DNA of 64,000 nt from Bacillota bacterium (lineage in GTDB: Bacteria > Bacillota > Clostridia > Ch29), in contig JABVCK010000029.1 of NCBI GenBank assembly GCA_013540605.1, positions 124,001-188,000 on the forward strand, written 5' to 3'. Of the stretch, positions 28,597-42,819 are shown one piece after another. Both the position numbers and the translations under genes were made by a program. How positions within the stretch are numbered: position 1 is the stretch's first letter; every line of letters begins with the position of its first letter. Under the pieces are notes generated by a model, which was not told where the DNA came from, did no database searches, and was given only the letters and a program-made list of their open reading frames with translations.

Positions 28597-28657
28597 ATTC
28601 CCATGTATTATTGGAAATGTAGTATTATATATATAACAATACCTGGAGGTGGGAAGG

Positions 28658-29056
28658 TTGATTTTAGGAGTTGTTAACGAAAAGTGTTCAGGATGCCGCA
28701 CGTGCCAGGCATTATGCTCGCTCCAGAACCTGGCGGTCTGGAATCCCAAGAAGGCTGCGCTTAAAGTTATACCAAGGTTTCCGAAGCCCGGAGAGTACGA
28801 GGTGGGGGTGTGCAACCAGTGCGGGGTTTGCGCGAAGATCTGTCCGGCAGAAGCAATCTATAGGGATAGGGATGTCTATTTGATTAATGAAGAGGAGTGC
28901 ACTGGGTGCGGACTATGCGTTGAAGCGTGTCCCAATAATGTTATGGTAATGCTGGGTGATATGAAAGCGCCTTTTAAATGCAACGGCTGTGGCGAGTGCA
29001 TAAGCTATTGTCCCAGGGAAGCGCTGTATGATGTATGCGGGGGTGATAAAAAATGA
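28658..29056 (+). CDS. Polyferredoxin-type electron carrier of the AOR
   Basis: 132 residues from TTG 28658 behind GGAGGT. Cysteine-rich with four cluster motifs: CSGCRTCQALC, CNQCGVCAKIC, CTGCGLCVEAC and CNGCGECISYC; the 4Fe-4S groups combine these. It overlaps the AOR gene by 4 bases (ATGA), so it likely shuttles electrons to or from the tungsten enzyme, as small subunits of this family do. Confidence 0.9.
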   Translation: MILGVVNEKCSGCRTCQALCSLQNLAVWNPKKAALKVIPRFPKPGEYEVGVCNQCGVCAKICPAEAIYRDRDVYLINEEECTGCGLCVEACPNNVMVMLGDMKAPFKCNGCGECISYCPREALYDVCGGDKK

Positions 29057-30894
29057 TCTATGGATATAACCAGAAACTGTTGAGGGTTAACCTTTCCACG
29101 GGAAGGATCAGCGTGGAAAATATTCCTGATGATGTTGTAAGGGAATACATAGGAGGCCGTGGCTTTGTTGCAAAGTACATGTTCGATGAGATACCGAAGG
29201 GTGCAGATCCCCTGGGAGAGGGCAACAAGGTATTTATTGCAGTAGGTCCCTTATCGGCAGCCTTTCTTCCAAGCAGCGGAAAGATTGAATTTGGTGCAAA
29301 ATCACCCCTGACCGGTGGGTATGGGGACAGCAACATGGGTGGACATCTTTCGGCTGAACTAAAGTCCGCCGGATACGACATGATTATAATTGAGGGGATT
29401 GCCGACAAACCTAAATACCTTTATATTGATAATGACAGGATTGAGATAAGGGATGCATCAGAATACTGGGGCATGGGAGCGCTTGATACGGAAGAGGTAT
29501 TGAAGAATGAGCTGGGAGAGGAGTTCCAGATTGCAACCATAGGTCCCGCAGCTGAGAAACTGCTAAAATTTGCCTGTGTATCCCATGACTTTGGAAGACA
29601 GGCAGGACGCACCGGAGTTGGGACCGTTTTGGGATCAAAGAGACTAAAAGCAATTGCAATCAGGGGCAACAAGGATATCAAAGTATTCGACCCCGAGGGG
29701 CTGCTGAAGAAGTCCAAGGAAATGTACGATACGATTTTCTCCTTGCCGGGTTTTACCGAGTGGGCACCCTACGGTACGGCAGATATCACCACATGGGTCA
29801 ATAACGTTGGCGCCCTGCCTACCAGGAACTTCAAACACGGCTATTTCAAGCCGGCTGATAATCTAACCGGAAGGGATATCAGGGAGAAAATCCTTGTGAA
29901 GGATAAGGGCTGCTTCTGCTGTCCCATTCCCTGCGGAAAGTATTCAAAGGTTGAGAAGAACGGCAACGAATACTATGTGGAAGGACCGGAGTATGAAACA
30001 ATAGCCCTCTGCGGCTCAAACCTTATGCTGGAGAACATAGAGGATGTAGCCTACGTTAACTATCTGTTCGACAATTACGGCATTGATACGATGTCCGGCG
30101 GAGGAGTTGTGGCCTTTGCCCTTGAATGCTGTGAAAAGGGGATTATCACACCCGAACAGGTTGAATATAAAGAGCTGAAGTTCGGTGATCTTGATTCGAT
30201 AGAGTATTTAATACATAAAATAGCCAACCGGCACGGGATAGGTGAAATCCTTGCCGAAGGCACAAAAAAAGCCGCATTGGTCCTCGGCAAGGGGTCGGAA
30301 AGGTTTGCAATCCAGGTCAAGGGTCAGGAGTGCAGCGGTTATGACCCAAGAAACGCCGCGGCGACAATTCTTGCATATATGACATGTGACGTGGGGTCTC
30401 ATCACAACAGGGCATGGGCAATAACCTATGACGTTGAAGTCGGGCGTTTTGAAGTAAAGGGCAAGGCTGAAAAGGTTATATGGATGCAGCACGTAAGGCC
30501 TATGCTGGATACCCTGACCGTATGCCGCTTCCCATGGATAGAACTTGGCTTTTCGCTTGACGATTATCCGACGGTATTAAATCTGGTTACCGGGTTCAAC
30601 TATACATGGGAAGATTTGAAGAGGCTGTCCGAACGGGTGTGGAACATAACCAGGGCATTCTGGGCAAGGGAAGTGGAGGACTTTGGCCGTGAATATGACT
30701 GGCCGCCCGCAAGGTTCTACGAAGAGCCAACCATTGGTGGCGCAGTTGACGGAATGCATATAAGTAGGGATACCCTTGAAGAGTTGCTTGACAGGTATTA
30801 CAGCCTGAGGGGCTGGGACAAAAACGGAATTCCTACAAGGGAGAAGCTGGAGGAGCTTGGGCTTAGCTACGTTGCAGAGAGTCTAGGGCTTTAA
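29053..30894 (+). CDS. aor: Aldehyde:ferredoxin oxidoreductase (tungsten)
   Basis: 613 residues. N-terminal AOR domain (RVNLSTGRIS, EYIGGRGFVAKYMFDE), pterin-binding GKIEFGAKSPLTGGYGDSN in pieces (FGAKSPLTGGYGDSN), and cluster cysteines C287, C290, C294 (GCFCCPIPCGKY) with a fourth in TLTVCRFPW. Members oxidise aldehydes to acids or run in reverse with reduced ferredoxin. The operon adds an aminotransferase, a MoaD-like protein and a possible selenoprotein, which suggests a dedicated amino-acid-derived aldehyde pathway and metal cofactor supply (inference). Confidence 0.95.
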   Translation: MIYGYNQKLLRVNLSTGRISVENIPDDVVREYIGGRGFVAKYMFDEIPKGADPLGEGNKVFIAVGPLSAAFLPSSGKIEFGAKSPLTGGYGDSNMGGHLSAELKSAGYDMIIIEGIADKPKYLYIDNDRIEIRDASEYWGMGALDTEEVLKNELGEEFQIATIGPAAEKLLKFACVSHDFGRQAGRTGVGTVLGSKRLKAIAIRGNKDIKVFDPEGLLKKSKEMYDTIFSLPGFTEWAPYGTADITTWVNNVGALPTRNFKHGYFKPADNLTGRDIREKILVKDKGCFCCPIPCGKYSKVEKNGNEYYVEGPEYETIALCGSNLMLENIEDVAYVNYLFDNYGIDTMSGGGVVAFALECCEKGIITPEQVEYKELKFGDLDSIEYLIHKIANRHGIGEILAEGTKKAALVLGKGSERFAIQVKGQECSGYDPRNAAATILAYMTCDVGSHHNRAWAITYDVEVGRFEVKGKAEKVIWMQHVRPMLDTLTVCRFPWIELGFSLDDYPTVLNLVTGFNYTWEDLKRLSERVWNITRAFWAREVEDFGREYDWPPARFYEEPTIGGAVDGMHISRDTLEELLDRYYSLRGWDKNGIPTREKLEELGLSYVAESLGL

Positions 30895-30929
30895 CTGTGG
30901 AAGATCTATCTGAGACGGAGGGAATGAAA

Positions 30930-32276
30930 ATGCGGAAAAAAGAGGACTGCCTATTTCTGAGGGACTATAAATGGGAATATCCTGAGATTGAATACGGTAA
31001 AGGGGTTTATCTCTATGATACCGAAGGCAGGGAGTATATAGATGCATGTGCGGGAGCGGCTGCCGCGAACTTGGGGCATGGCAGCGGTGAGATTGCACAG
31101 GTGATGGCTGAACAGGCAAAGAGGGTTGCCTTTACCCACCTGTCGAGGTTTGTTACAAGACCGGCGTATGAACTGGCCGAAAAAGTAGCGGAAATGACAC
31201 CGGCGGATCTAAACTACGTCTATTTCGTATCGGGCGGTTCAGAGGCCACCGAAACGGCAATAAAGCTCTGCAGGCAGTATTTTCTGGAGCGAGATGGCGT
31301 AACGAGCAAGTACAAAATAATTTCACGGTGGAGGAGCTATCATGGAAATACCATTGGTTCTCTTTCACTGTCAGGAAAGCCCGACCTCAGGAAGAAATAC
31401 GGTCCTCTGCTTCTTGATTTTCCCCATATTACTCCGGCATACTGCTATCGCTGCGAGTACGGTTTGACCTGCGATAAATGCGGCAGTCGGTGCGCCTGGG
31501 ACCTTGAAAAGGCAATCCTAAGGGAAGGGCCGGAGAATGTGGCAGGGTTTATTGCAGAGCCTATTACCGGGTCTGCCGCTCCCGGAGCTTACCCGGTAAA
31601 GGATTACTACAAAATCGTCAGGGAAATCTGTGACAAATACGATATCCTTTTTATATCCGACGAAGTGATGAACGGCTTTGGAAGGACCGGCACAAATTTT
31701 GGCATCGATAATTTTGATGTAATACCTGACATCATGTGTATCGCAAAGGGAATTAGCAGCGGATATTCACCCCTGGGCGGAGCGGTTGTAAGCGAAAAGA
31801 TCATATCAGTATTCAGAAAAGGGTCGGGCAGCTTTACCCACGGCCATACCTATGGCGGCAACCCGCTTTCATGTGCGGTGGGCTCGGTTGTGCTGGATAT
31901 AATTAAGAGGGACGGGATAGTCGAAAACAGCAAAAGGATGGGCGAATTGCTCAAGGCAAAACTGCAAAATGAAATAGGCAGCCATGCAATAGTAGGGGAT
32001 ATAAGAGGTATGGGGCTGCAACTGGGTGTAGAATTTGTTAAGGACAAGAACACCAAGGAGCCCTTTGAGAAGAGCGTAAACCTGAAATCCAAGCTTACTA
32101 AGAGGGGATTGGAAAACGGCATTGTTCTTTATCCCGGGGGTGGCTCCGCCGATACCGTAAGGGGAGATCATATTCTGCTGACGCCTCCCTTAAACATCAG
32201 CGAAGCCCATGTGGATGAAATTGTTGTGAAGCTTAAGAAAACCATAGAGGATGTAAGCCGTAATATCTTCGATTAG
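30930..32276 (+). CDS. Class III PLP aminotransferase with Cys4 insert
   Basis: 448 residues from ATG 30930 behind CGGAGGG. PLP motifs: VSGGSEATETAIKLCRQYF in pieces (VSGGSEATETAIKL), SYHGNTIGSLSLSG, FISDEVMNGFGRTG, and the lysine in IAKGISSGYSPLGG. A four-cysteine insert (CYRCEYGLTCDKCGSRC, about residues 169-185) may bind zinc or simply mark this subfamily. Located between AOR and MoaD-like genes, it could generate the oxo acid or semialdehyde that feeds the AOR. Confidence 0.88.
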   Translation: MRKKEDCLFLRDYKWEYPEIEYGKGVYLYDTEGREYIDACAGAAAANLGHGSGEIAQVMAEQAKRVAFTHLSRFVTRPAYELAEKVAEMTPADLNYVYFVSGGSEATETAIKLCRQYFLERDGVTSKYKIISRWRSYHGNTIGSLSLSGKPDLRKKYGPLLLDFPHITPAYCYRCEYGLTCDKCGSRCAWDLEKAILREGPENVAGFIAEPITGSAAPGAYPVKDYYKIVREICDKYDILFISDEVMNGFGRTGTNFGIDNFDVIPDIMCIAKGISSGYSPLGGAVVSEKIISVFRKGSGSFTHGHTYGGNPLSCAVGSVVLDIIKRDGIVENSKRMGELLKAKLQNEIGSHAIVGDIRGMGLQLGVEFVKDKNTKEPFEKSVNLKSKLTKRGLENGIVLYPGGGSADTVRGDHILLTPPLNISEAHVDEIVVKLKKTIEDVSRNIFD

Positions 32277-32287
32277 AGGGTGGTACA

Positions 32288-32521
32288 ATGAAAATTCAGG
32301 TAGAGGTTATGGGGCATTTAACGGACGTTGTGGCCGGACTGGAAAGGAAGCAAGAGGTTGACTTGCCTGACAACACAGCCTTGTCCATGCTGTTAAGCAA
32401 TCTTGGGATTAAGCGGGAACTTGCATACATGGTCCTGGTTAACGGACAGAGAGAGGATGGATCCCATTTGCTGAGGGATGGGGACAGGGTGACTGTATTC
32501 TCACCCCCGGCGGGAGGCTGA
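32288..32521 (+). CDS. MoaD/ThiS-type sulfur carrier
   Basis: 77 residues with ubiquitin-like beta-grasp pattern (VEVMGHLTDVVAGL; DLPDNTALSMLLSNL; LRDGDRVTVFSP) and the C-terminal Gly-Gly needed for adenylation and thiocarboxylation. Such proteins sulfurate molybdopterin or tungstopterin; the AOR upstream is the likely beneficiary. Confidence 0.88.
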   Translation: MKIQVEVMGHLTDVVAGLERKQEVDLPDNTALSMLLSNLGIKRELAYMVLVNGQREDGSHLLRDGDRVTVFSPPAGG

Positions 32522-32528
32522 TGGATTA

Positions 32529-32816
32529 ATGAAAATCAGGATTGCGGACAACTTCCTGCTGGAATATATTGGGGAACACGGTGCGGAAATCGAGATAAAG
32601 ATAAAAGAGGTTAACACATGATGATTTAAAGTGAAAAAGTGCCCGTTGGGCATAACGAAAAGGCCTAAAGATATTGCCCAATTCAGGATTTTTGAGCAGG
32701 ATGGCATTACAGTCTTTATTCACAAAAGCCTAAGTCTCAGTGAGGGCGACCACAGGATATTGGTGGATTATATGTTCTGGTCCAATATCAGTGTATATTA
32801 TGAAGGGTGCGGTTAA
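32529..32816 (+). CDS. Candidate selenoprotein with two consecutive in-frame TGA codons
   Basis: ATG 32529 has GGGAGGC at 32512-32518. The frame reads 30 residues, then TGA TGA (32619-32624), then 62 or so sense codons to TAA at 32816, about 95 residues in all. The halves look like one small protein: MKIRIADNFLLEYIGEHGAE before, PKDIAQFRIFEQDGITVFIH after. I recall a small CC/Se-motif protein family of this size in which Cys-Cys can be replaced by selenocysteine. A hairpin follows the TGAs. If it is not recoded, it is a 30-residue peptide plus a second frame starting at GTG 32631. Confidence 0.6.
32640..32652 (+). other. SECIS-like hairpin after the double TGA
   Basis: TGCCC (32640-32644), loop GTT, GGGCA (32648-32652), with a possible G-T closing pair at 32639/32653. 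It begins about 15 bases after the second TGA, the range expected for a bacterial SECIS element read by SelB. The loop is small, so the case rests on position. Confidence 0.45.
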
Positions 32817-32872
32817 CGCACTCCTTATCTTTTTGCTCAGATGCGCAAAGCAATAATTTAGTTGGAAAGATA

Positions 32873-32922
32873 TTGACAATCAGGGGGCAATCGGGTAAAA
32901 TATAGTTGATAATGATTATCAA
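32873..32922 (+). promoter_or_regulatory. feoAB promoter with Fur box
   Basis: TTGACA (32873-32878), 17 bases, TAAAAT (32896-32901). A perfect palindrome TTGATAATGATTATCAA lies at 32906-32922, over the transcription start, and matches the Fur/GATAAT consensus. Iron-bound Fur, encoded 3 kb downstream, should repress it. Confidence 0.9.
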
Positions 32923-32943
32923 TTTCATACGGAGGTATTTGCC

Positions 32944-36099: not shown

Positions 36100-36537
36100 T
36101 TGTTCAGCCCTGAAGGCATTAAGGATAAGCTTAAGAATAAGGGATATAAACTGACTCCTCAGAGAAGGGCGACCCTTGACGTGATACTTGACCAGCAGGG
36201 GAAGCACCTTAGCACGGAGGATGTTTATATGCTGGTAAAAGAAAGATGCCCCGAAATAGGCTTGGCTACCGTTTACAGAACACTGCAGCTGCTTGAACAG
36301 TTGGGCGTAATAAGCAAACACAATTTCGATGATGGATGCAGTAGGTATGAACTGGCGGGCAGCGAAGACGACCACCAGCACCATCATTTGATTTGCGTAA
36401 GATGCGGAGGCGTACAGGAAGTTGAAGGCGATTTGCTGGAGCACCTGGAAAAAGAAATCGAGGAGAAGAATAAATTTAAAATTTTAGACCATAAAGTAAA
36501 GTTTTTCGGGTACTGCAATAAGTGCATAGAAGAATGA
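36100..36537 (+). CDS. fur: Fur family metalloregulator
   Basis: 145 residues from TTG 36100. DNA-binding part has GYKLTPQRRATLDVIL and LATVYRTLQLLEQLGVI; the metal site has DHQHHHLICVRCGGVQEVEG and a C-terminal CNKC pair. Most like Fur by histidine cluster, though PerR/Zur cannot be excluded. The two Fur-box palindromes at feo promoters near it are obvious targets. Confidence 0.88.
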   Translation: MFSPEGIKDKLKNKGYKLTPQRRATLDVILDQQGKHLSTEDVYMLVKERCPEIGLATVYRTLQLLEQLGVISKHNFDDGCSRYELAGSEDDHQHHHLICVRCGGVQEVEGDLLEHLEKEIEEKNKFKILDHKVKFFGYCNKCIEE

Positions 36538-39182: not shown

Positions 39183-40439
39183 TCAGTTACACCTCCTAAA
39201 TTTTGGAGAATAATTTTTGTTATCGCGTAGCAGCGCGAAAACAAGGCGAACAAGCTTGCGGGCAGTAAAAACAAGGGCTCTGCGGTGCTTATGAGTCTTA
39301 GACTCATTATGCTTTTGCTGATAATAGGCAATGTACTCGGGAACGAACTGTTTTACAAGGTTTGCGGATTCAGTCATATAGTAACGTAGGTAGGCATTCC
39401 CACTGCGGGTGATAGAAGTATCATCCGCCCGCTGATTCCTACCCGACTTGCTGAATTGCCAGGTCAGTCCGGCATACTTGGCAAGTGCGTTATCATCCTT
39501 AAACCTTGTAATATCGCCGATTTCAGCAATAAGGCCAGCACTGAAGACAGGACCAATACCGCGGATGGAGATCAAAGGGTTATCAAAAACAGCAATCTGT
39601 TTCTTGATCTGCTTGTCAACGATTGTCATCTGCTTTGAGTAGAACCTGATGTTTTCGGCAGTCGTTTTAAGAGCGAAATTGACAGGCTTCTGTAAGTCGG
39701 AGTGCAGTCTGTAAGCCTTCGAAGCAGCATCCTTGAGTTGTTTAGCGATACTGGCCGGGTCTTCAAAGTGCGATTTGCCCTTATCCATAAGGAAGTCTAT
39801 GAGGTCAGGAAGCGGTCTGGCCGCAAGTTCATCAACAGTCAAAAAGTCGTTGATCACGGCTAAAGAAGCAGCGCCAAAGGTATTGGAGAATATGTCCGAC
39901 TGTCTTAAGGAGCTGAACTTTAAAAAAAGCACGCTCAAGAAAATGTTCTTCTCCCTGGCCATGTAATCAGCCAGGTGAAACCGGAGCCTTGTAAGCCTTT
40001 GTAGTGCGATGTAGGGGAAGTTGAAGGCAGCAGGCTTGGGTAGTTTTCCGCAGCGCAACCGGTCGGCGACAGCGAAGGCATCGATAGGATCTGACTTAGG
40101 GTAAATACCCAGAGCTTTTTTATGGGCCTTCACCTGAGCTGGGTTGAAGCAGAAAACCGAAGGTTTGAACTTCCAGAGGATAGGGCTTTGGAGGATGGCG
40201 ACCTCGAGATGCCAGCCTAAAAAGGAAGTCGCTTCGATACCGAACATGATGGCATCAAGATCATGGTGGGACATGGTCTTAGCAATCTGCTCGGTAAGCT
40301 CCTGGGAACCTGGAAGATTATTGGGGTAAACAAGCCTTTTGGGAAAGAGCTTGTTCCCCATATAATCCAGGAAACAGATATCGACGGAATCCAGGCCGAC
40401 ATCGGCGCCAACAAACAGGGTTTTGGCATAATTATGCAT
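39183..40439 (-). CDS. IS110 transposase (DEDD)
   Basis: 418 residues from ATG 40439, behind GGAAAGGAGGTG. N-terminal RuvC-like DEDD nuclease: VGADVGLDSVDIC, MFGIEATSFLGW, DPIDAFAVADRL. C-terminal transposase_20 domain with SIRGIGPVFSAGLIAEIGD in pieces and the serine motif TRSGNAYLRYYMTE. It is intact, and it mobilises the element with a bridge RNA. Confidence 0.93.
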   Translation of the reverse strand: MHNYAKTLFVGADVGLDSVDICFLDYMGNKLFPKRLVYPNNLPGSQELTEQIAKTMSHHDLDAIMFGIEATSFLGWHLEVAILQSPILWKFKPSVFCFNPAQVKAHKKALGIYPKSDPIDAFAVADRLRCGKLPKPAAFNFPYIALQRLTRLRFHLADYMAREKNIFLSVLFLKFSSLRQSDIFSNTFGAASLAVINDFLTVDELAARPLPDLIDFLMDKGKSHFEDPASIAKQLKDAASKAYRLHSDLQKPVNFALKTTAENIRFYSKQMTIVDKQIKKQIAVFDNPLISIRGIGPVFSAGLIAEIGDITRFKDDNALAKYAGLTWQFSKSGRNQRADDTSITRSGNAYLRYYMTESANLVKQFVPEYIAYYQQKHNESKTHKHRRALVFTARKLVRLVFALLRDNKNYSPKFRRCN

Positions 40440-40860
40440 ACTGTACACCTCCTTTCCGTGTAAAGTAGGTCGTGCAATGTGTAAGGAATGTCGGGGGCAT
40501 CCTGGCAACCATACCGTACAGCAACCTTGTAATAAGCGCTTGTCTCTGCAACCTTGATCAGCATCTGCTACTGCGGAGGTTGCAAGGACAGAAGCTGCAA
40601 AGCGTGAGTTTGAAGTGGCAGGCATGGAGCAGGGGGTCTGACTAACTGAGTGCTTGAAAGCAACAGGGAGGTTAAGGCCTTCCCCGGAGAAACCTTACAG
40701 TTCCATCATGCCACGATGCCCACGAGAAGTAAATAGGCCAGAAGGCCGCGCGCCGCTTACTGCGCAGTAAGCGGCATCCTAAGGATGTTTTAGAAAGGCT
40801 TCGAAGAAGTCAATAGCAGTGTTCTTCGAAGAGTCTTTGAAGTGAATTACCAGTTAAATA
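40440..40860 (-). other. IS110 upstream noncoding region, candidate bridge-RNA locus
   Basis: About 420 bases before the transposase start contain strong structures: a perfect 24-base palindrome (GCCGCTTACTGC and complement, 40752-40775), CATCC/GGATG just after it, and a 10-base stem CTTCGAAGAA/TTCTTCGAAG (40799-40808, 40822-40831). In IS110-group elements the bridge RNA is made from the noncoding end before the ORF. Confidence 0.5.
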
Positions 40861-40929: not shown

Positions 40930-42819
40930 ATGATGCCCAGTTTAACAGTAGCGTTAGCCGGAAATCCAAACTCAGGCAAGACAACGCTTTTTAATGCCCT
41001 AACAGGGGCCAGGCAGTACGTAGGCAACTGGCCGGGGGTTACGGTGGAAAAGAAGGAAGGAAAGATTAAGTACAAGGGACTGGATATCAAACTGGTGGAT
41101 TTACCGGGGACTTACAGCTTAAATGCCTATTCTATAGAAGAGATCATTGCAAAGGACTACATTGTCAAAGATAATCCTGACGTGGTAATAAACATAGTGG
41201 ATGGCACAAACCTGGAAAGGAATCTATATCTAACGGTGCAATTGCTGGAATTGGGAGTGCCGGTGGTGTTAGCACTAAACATGATGGACGAGGTAGAAAG
41301 GAAAGGCTACCGGATTGATTTTGAAAAATTAAGCCGGTTGCTGGGAGTTCCTGTAGTACCAATTACAGCTATTAAAAAAACCGGCATATCTTCATTGTTA
41401 GAAAAAGTGACAACATATGGGAAGGATGTTGAGAGAGAAGAAACTGCCTTTAATAAATATTACAAAAGCATTGAGAATGAAATTCAAAATCAATCGGGCG
41501 AGGAAGCTTCGGATAAGCTTATAGAAGCAAGATATGATTTTATCGGTGATGTTTTAAGCCAGTGCTTAATAAAAGCAGAAAAGGAAAGCCTTTCTTTATC
41601 CGATAAAATAGACAGAGTCATAACAAACAGGATACTGGGTATACCAATATTTTTAGGGTTTCTGTACCTTATGTTCCAATTCACCTTTGCCTGGGTAGGT
41701 CAGCCGATAGCAGACTGGTTGGATGGATTTTTCGGAGATGTACTGACACCCTGGGTTGAAGAAATCCTTGAAGCTGCAGCGGCAGCGGAGTGGTTGAAGT
41801 CCTTGGTCATTGACGGCATAATAGACGGTGTTGGCGGAGTAATAGTGTTTGTACCTCTAATCTTTGCGCTGTTCCTTTTCATAGCTGTTCTAGAAGATAG
41901 CGGGTATATGGCAAGGGTTGCATTCATTATGGATAGGGCCATGAGGAAAATCGGACTTTCGGGAAAAGCGTTTATTCCGATGATCATTGGTTTCGGCTGC
42001 ACAGTACCTGCAATAATGGGTACAAGGACCCTGGAAGATGACAAGGACAGAAAGATGACCATGCTCATTGCTCCTTTCATGTCATGCGGAGCAAGGCTGC
42101 CCGTATATGCTTTGTTTGCTGCAGTGTTCTTCCCGGGCAGGGAGACAAATGTTGTTTTCTCCCTGTATATTTTAGGCATAGCTATAGCTATAATAATGGG
42201 GCTTATCTTTAAGAATACGCTATTTAAAGGAGAAGCCGTTCCATTTATTATGGAGCTGCCTCCATACCGTATACCTGCATTTAAAGGTGTAGTACTTCGC
42301 GTATGGGACAGGGGAAAACAGTACCTGAAGAAAGCCGGTACCATTATATTCGCCATGTCGGTTGTGGTCTGGTTTTTATCCAGCTATAACTTCAGCGGCC
42401 CGGCGGAAATTGCAGACAGTCTGTTGGCCGGAGTGGGAAGGATTTTGGCTCCGCTATTCAAGGCGAACGGTTTTGGAAACTGGCAGGCTTCTGTGGCTTT
42501 ATTGACAGGTCTCGTTGCCAAAGAGGTTGTTGTTGCGACTATGGGAGTCATTTACGGCATAGGGGAATTGGCTGAAGAGGCTGCGGCAGCTGCAGCGCAG
42601 ATGGGGGGAACCCTGGCACAGTACTTTTCCGCACTGTCGGCCTATGCCTTCATGGCGTTCGTTTTGCTGTACACCCCATGCCTTGCTGTCGTAGGGGTTA
42701 TGAAGAGAGAATTCGATTCGTGGAAGTGGACGCTCTTTGCAGTATTCTACCAGTTTGGAGTAGCATGGGTAGTATCCATGATAATCTATCAGGGAGGAAG
42801 ATTATTGGGCTTTAGCTAG
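40930..42819 (+). CDS. feoB: FeoB ferrous iron transporter, canonical
   Basis: 629 residues. G1 GNPNSGKTTLFN, G3 DLPGTYSL, G4 NMMDEV; pore with GFGCTVPAIMGTR and the second gate GLVAKEVVVATMG. GTP-driven ferrous iron uptake across the cytoplasmic membrane. It belongs to the same operon as the Fur-controlled feoA genes (38591-39044), now broken by the IS110 insertion, so expression may depend on a promoter from the IS or be lost. Confidence 0.95.
   Translation: MMPSLTVALAGNPNSGKTTLFNALTGARQYVGNWPGVTVEKKEGKIKYKGLDIKLVDLPGTYSLNAYSIEEIIAKDYIVKDNPDVVINIVDGTNLERNLYLTVQLLELGVPVVLALNMMDEVERKGYRIDFEKLSRLLGVPVVPITAIKKTGISSLLEKVTTYGKDVEREETAFNKYYKSIENEIQNQSGEEASDKLIEARYDFIGDVLSQCLIKAEKESLSLSDKIDRVITNRILGIPIFLGFLYLMFQFTFAWVGQPIADWLDGFFGDVLTPWVEEILEAAAAAEWLKSLVIDGIIDGVGGVIVFVPLIFALFLFIAVLEDSGYMARVAFIMDRAMRKIGLSGKAFIPMIIGFGCTVPAIMGTRTLEDDKDRKMTMLIAPFMSCGARLPVYALFAAVFFPGRETNVVFSLYILGIAIAIIMGLIFKNTLFKGEAVPFIMELPPYRIPAFKGVVLRVWDRGKQYLKKAGTIIFAMSVVVWFLSSYNFSGPAEIADSLLAGVGRILAPLFKANGFGNWQASVALLTGLVAKEVVVATMGVIYGIGELAEEAAAAAAQMGGTLAQYFSALSAYAFMAFVLLYTPCLAVVGVMKREFDSWKWTLFAVFYQFGVAWVVSMIIYQGGRLLGFS

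Follow-up and report, generated by a model that had tools for sequence, protein, structure and literature searches.

A conserved tandem TGA in a Bacillota AOR operon probably encodes adjacent selenocysteines in a small protein of the CC/Se motif family

The window analyzed here is a stretch of 64,000 nucleotides from a Bacillota bacterium of the class Clostridia (GenBank assembly GCA_013540605.1, contig JABVCK010000029.1, positions 124,001 to 188,000). It contains an operon with genes for a polyferredoxin, a tungsten aldehyde ferredoxin oxidoreductase (AOR), a class-III aminotransferase and a MoaD/ThiS-like sulfur carrier, followed by a small gene with two consecutive in-frame TGA codons (Table 1). 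Both the doublet, which a preliminary description of this DNA had placed in a gene of about 95 codons behind the MoaD-like gene, and the setting that it had named, an AOR operon with an aminotransferase, were confirmed. Neighbouring genes of the operon either share 4 nt or have gaps of 2–11 nt between them, and 7 nt lie between the MoaD/ThiS-like gene and the start of the 95-codon frame. Since a terminator-like hairpin spans its stop codon, the tandem-TGA gene is probably the final gene of the AOR operon.

In the following region, a consensus scan detected a strong promoter-like element (TTGACA-17-TAAAAT, from 32873) and then the Fur-box-like sequence GATAATGATTATCAAT, both ahead of feoA/feoB (32873-32935). 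Further frames in the window resemble a Fur regulator (36100-36537) and a second FeoB (40930-42819), and between the two feo regions lies a transposase-like frame on the minus strand (39183-40625), of the IS110 type as judged by eye.

Table 1. Features of the AOR operon and of the tandem-TGA gene (window positions).
Feature	Position	Strand	Remarks
Polyferredoxin gene, overlaps AOR start	28649..29056	+	Fer4 families
Aldehyde ferredoxin oxidoreductase (tungsten AOR family) gene	29053..30894	+	PF01314, PF02730; same operon
Class-III aminotransferase gene	30897..32276	+	PF00202; same operon as tandem-TGA gene
MoaD/ThiS-like sulfur carrier gene	32288..32521	+	PF02597; same operon as tandem-TGA gene
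Putative tandem-Sec selenoprotein gene, UU subfamily of NF041239	32529..32816	+	ATG, 95 codons (95 aa), TAA
TGA TGA doublet	32619..32624	+	Sec31-Sec32 reading; same in 24 distinct homologues; distant members CC/CU/UC there
Lowest-energy hairpin GTGCCC-GTT-GGGCAT	32639..32653	+	starts 15 nt after second TGA; fits published bSECIS constraints
Family-register SECIS stem CGTTG-GGCA-TAACG, 5 pairs	32644..32657	+	alignment A3 and pair counts; overlaps lowest-energy hairpin
Terminator-like hairpin spanning stop codon of tandem-TGA gene	32805..32823	+	consensus match only

When selenocysteine (Sec, U) was read at the TGA codons, the window protein matched the NCBIfam model NF041239, the "CC/Se motif" (seleno)protein family, with 41.7 bits, the curated cut-off being 40 bits. 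The preliminary description had named this family correctly. All of the 16 members with two TGAs (UU members) that were scanned matched the model, the others with 33.7–53.9 bits, some of them under the cut-off; no Pfam model matched the window protein. Of 399 genomes sampled from the phylum, 90 had NF041239 matches; most of these matches contained a single in-frame TGA, and a subset contained two. A profile was built from the 16 two-TGA members, and every match of at least 77 bits had two TGAs, the next one scoring 47 bits; the scores of its own members are inflated, as these are its source sequences.

The TGATGA doublet was read in the DNA of 24 distinct homologous genes, at the same place and with the protein conserved on both sides, and therefore the tandem TGA is not a product of chance. 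Neither Cys nor a sense codon occupied either doublet position among these 24 clade members. In distant members of NF041239 the aligned pair is CC (e.g., L128, L129, and L135) or CU (L014 and L015), or has U at the first place and then A or C (L021 and L030), so that the Cys-Cys expected in relatives is present within the same family. By residue count to a conserved Pro in our own alignment, the single Sec of the distant members appears to fall on the two doublet positions, and the window protein has UU at the motif pair, for which NF041239 requires Cys or Sec and other members carry CC, CU or UC. The window copy is divergent (28% identity to its relative at locus L052); MAFFT shifted its doublet by one column in alignment A1, and probably in A4, and the lists of invariant columns there are not literal. 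In one strain the doublet is preceded by TGC, giving TGC TGA TGA, that is, Cys-Sec-Sec (L074:8088-8096).

The 24 members were found in Bacillota and Chloroflexota, the carriers being Thermosediminibacter-like and other Bacillota and Anaerolineae-type Chloroflexota. Cultured species are among them: Thermosediminibacter litoriperuensis (L071), Thermovorax subterraneus (L072) and Fervidicola ferrireducens (L073). A scan of 84,980 species genomes, with patterns that also allowed CC and were taken from a 7-member subset since the 16-member alignment was too divergent, recovered only TGATGA relatives plus one short CC match (L084), which was dismissed as due to chance. No TGATGA relatives were detected in the viral contigs scanned. 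In a tree with U coded as C, a branch with support 97/92 separates the 24 UU genes from the rest, and the window gene, on an end branch of 1.92, groups with L052 (support 97/89). The genome of the window carries a second TGATGA paralogue (L064:6965-7249, C25:195186 region), located after genes for ArsR, Acr3 and a YfcE-type phosphodiesterase.

Downstream of the doublet, the pairwise dN/dS values, where estimable, were 0.04–0.34 and similar to those upstream, and on these sequence comparisons the codons after the doublet are under purifying selection. The coding-like sequence reported on both sides of the TGA codons corresponds to a protein conserved in 24 genes. No homologue ended at the TGA or started at the GTG codon at 32631, one of the findings that the preliminary description had named as counting against its proposal. 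The genes selA, selB and selC (tRNA-Sec), which it had suggested looking for, are present side by side in the genome of the window (TIGR00474, TIGR00475, ARAGORN, and RF01852).

A hairpin had also been reported about 15 bases downstream of the doublet, and one was found 15 nt after the second TGA. The bacterial SECIS (bSECIS) model describes a stem of 4–16 bp and a loop of 3–9 nt with G in the first two positions, 16–37 nt from the UGA and with an energy of at most -7.5 kcal/mol (PMC13188914). The window hairpin lies within all of these published constraints, with 6 bp, the loop GTT and distances of 20 and 23 nt from the two UGAs, although its energy (-7.6 kcal/mol) is only narrowly inside the limit. 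The local fold of the window by itself was no better than that of shuffled sequences (z = -0.73), and its significance thus rests on the relatives. No Rfam match was found around the gene.

In the 24 genes, a stem of 5–8 pairs lies downstream of the doublet, with a 4-nt loop in most members, and the loop starts at +22 (about 21–22 nt past the second UGA and about 24 nt past the first) in 21 of them. Compensatory changes altered five of the eight stem pairs on both sides; covariation scored 0.309, a value reached by none of 500 shuffles, the slid controls being more than threefold lower (at most 0.084). In L057, L058, and L060, Pro is encoded by CCG where other members have CCA, and the partner codon is one for Thr or Ala (ACG or GCG) where they have one for Met or Val (ATG or GTG), so that a change in the protein preserves the RNA pair; the same pair is retained as G-U in L051 and L064. 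The loop of the window is GGCA or GTT, compared with GGTC or GGTT in the relatives. Among members of the family with a single Sec, the loop is located at +22 in those with CU and at +24 in most others, and both distances from the doublet are therefore near ones that the family already uses. Having one covarying hairpin after the doublet, with its loop at +22, suggests that one bacterial SECIS can suffice for the two codons; SelB docked on this hairpin would then serve the two UGAs in turn.

The tandem-Sec interpretation of the preliminary description is thus supported by comparative sequence evidence. With a probability of about 0.88, a figure that covers the tandem-Sec reading and excludes the role of the protein, the product of the window gene is a small selenoprotein that has Sec-Sec at residues 31-32 and belongs to a tandem-Sec subfamily within the CC/Se motif family. 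That the gene simply ends at the first TGA after 30 codons, with a separate gene from GTG 32631 or nothing beyond, is extremely improbable: TGA is a stop by default and a 61-codon frame from that GTG exists, but all of the homologues run through both TGAs with the protein conserved on either side, distant relatives have Cys in place of TGA, the downstream codons are under purifying selection and SelA, SelB and tRNA-Sec are encoded in the genome, so that this explanation is already refuted on comparative grounds. The UU subfamily could also be real and the window copy decaying, its SECIS being devoid of the GGTC loop and its translation halting at the first UGA. The long branch, the low identity to relatives and a local fold not above shuffles would agree with such decay, which is nevertheless unlikely, since the frame is intact through to TAA, five stem pairs, with pairs changed on both sides among them, are retained in the family register, the NF041239 score exceeds the cut-off and the gene is the last of an intact operon like that of L052. 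Another explanation is that only one UGA is read as Sec, the other being passed by a near-cognate tRNA, by bypassing or inefficiently, which would yield a mostly single-Sec or terminated product. The two UGAs differ in their distance to the hairpin, and in the textbook bacterial case one SECIS serves one UGA; both spacings, however, are within 16–37 nt, and the absence of Cys and sense codons from both positions throughout the clade, even though single-Sec and CC relatives exist, makes this explanation improbable as well.

The structure model of the window protein was poor (pLDDT 53), which may be partly due to the one-column misplacement of its doublet by MAFFT. In the model of the relative at L082, which reached a pLDDT of 93, two long strands are joined by the turn that contains the Sec pair. 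A fold search of the PDB with this model gave, in the first ten places, IscA, SufA, DsrR and other Fe-S assembly-type proteins, as weak matches (E 0.01–0.4 and TM 0.39–0.52, with IscA ranked first at E 0.0099). A PDB sequence search gave nothing significant, no significant Pfam match (PF01521 included) was obtained for the 16 UU members, and hhalign against HesB-like selenoproteins left the motif unaligned. NF038090 gave weak matches in 4 of the 16 UU members and none for the window protein. The predicted fold of the relative, in which a beta turn holds the Sec pair, looks distantly IscA/HesB-like, and topology suggests that the Sec site may be the equivalent of the first IscA cysteine. The UU proteins differ from the HesB-like selenoproteins (TIGR01911/NF038090, UxGP) in having neither the UxGP motif nor a Pfam match. 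HesB-like selenoproteins (GxGU-GGP) were observed in L125, L126, and L127, from genomes of the same family, and none was found in the genome of the window.

Ferredoxin and AOR genes precede the UU gene, all with the same orientation, in the window, in L052, whose operon resembles that of the window, and in seven more loci (L053-L058 and L060). The AORs of these seven are ~29% identical to that of the window, so that two AOR types occur with a UU gene, which often comes after MoaD in the operons of both. The other branch of UU genes lies for the most part in an ars context, next to ArsR, Acr3, phosphodiesterase, ArsD, ArsA or ArsM (L061, L063, L064, L079, and L082) and, in several Chloroflexota, next to ArsR, ArsP, ArsM, ArsD or Acr3-like genes; neither an AOR nor an ars context was clear in L050, L051, L059, L062, and L081. 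The same neighbourhood search detected no AOR or Acr3 near 24 non-UU loci of the family. AOR-family genes were also seen near arsenic genes, convergent in L061 and 3–4 kb downstream in L076 and L078 from Chloroflexota, an arrangement that may hint at an arsenic-linked AOR.

Of 30 loci with the window's AOR type, L052 was the only one apart from the window where a UU gene was found within the stretch examined; of 30 AOR2-type loci, 7 had such a gene. The genome of the window has 15 AOR-family genes and two UU genes, and only the AOR of the window was found adjoining one of the latter. As most of the related AOR loci have no UU gene, AOR does not need it in cis, and the link between AOR and UU genes is real but optional. 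This optional link, the clade defined by the doublet and the second copy in an arsenic operon of the same genome go beyond the preliminary description. A small MoaD-like gene ending in GG was also noticed by eye after six AOR2-type genes without a UU gene (L180, L181, L187, L188, L189, and L198).

In the most likely, though tentative, role of the protein, the Sec pair would form a vicinal diselenol/diselenide site, serving either to bind a soft metalloid or as a redox site of low potential. The vicinal diselenol might bind a metalloid such as As(III), or a low-potential diselenide might be formed; in the AOR operon the protein could assist the tungsten AOR as an optional accessory with a redox or protective function, and in the sister group it could be part of arsenite resistance. 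Vicinal thiols are known As(III) ligands, and the proposed role therefore agrees more closely with the ars branch than with the AOR one. An obligate function in the maturation of tungsten AOR, by cofactor sulfuration or metal insertion, would agree with a gene located downstream of AOR, often after MoaD, in the operons of two AOR types. This is doubtful given that most related AOR loci are without a UU gene, that the genome has 15 AORs and two UU genes, and that the sister group lies in ars operons; the few UU genes among the AOR loci surveyed lower the idea. Considered as a whole, the data make it fairly likely that this is a bacterial clade with obligate Sec-Sec from UGA-UGA via one shared SECIS, in which an encoded vicinal diselenol/diselenide would serve arsenic handling and would have been co-opted in tungsten AOR operons.

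The CC/Se motif family was described in a 2026 review with one Sec and the motif CxxU, and an adjacent UU motif is absent from the 119 families in its table (PMC13188914). NF041239, a hypothetical selenoprotein of Moorella thermoacetica, shares with the window gene the family, the length, the place of the Cys/Sec pair and the downstream hairpin; by contrast, here both positions are predicted to be Sec, in a separate clade and in an AOR or ars context. The metal-binding double selenoprotein MbdU and other two-Sec bacterial families likewise have more than one Sec per protein, and none is listed with adjacent UU. Two consecutive Sec residues have been reported, as the first case, in the algal PDI_e with its GUGUU motif (PMC7539508). 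That protein has consecutive Sec in common with the window protein, but is eukaryotic and from an unrelated family. The eukaryotic SECIS is located in the 3' UTR; in the window gene, both codons would have to be served by a single local hairpin. No case of bacterial Sec-Sec was found in the literature searched, an earlier mention in that on the CC/Se family being possible, and the NCBI pipeline may already annotate some UU members. What is known is thus a family with one Sec, and what appears to be new is the bacterial UU form of that family.

Bacterial Sec insertion is usually described in terms of one UGA, one hairpin and a set distance. The conserved UGA-UGA and its single hairpin suggest that SelB can act twice in succession, at two spacings, and that such double events are tolerated and have been kept in a clade, and the pair makes the mechanics of the SECIS directly testable. 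If the tandem-Sec reading is true, the clade would contain a natural vicinal diselenide, rare among known proteins, and selenium would be linked to arsenic handling and to tungsten enzymes.
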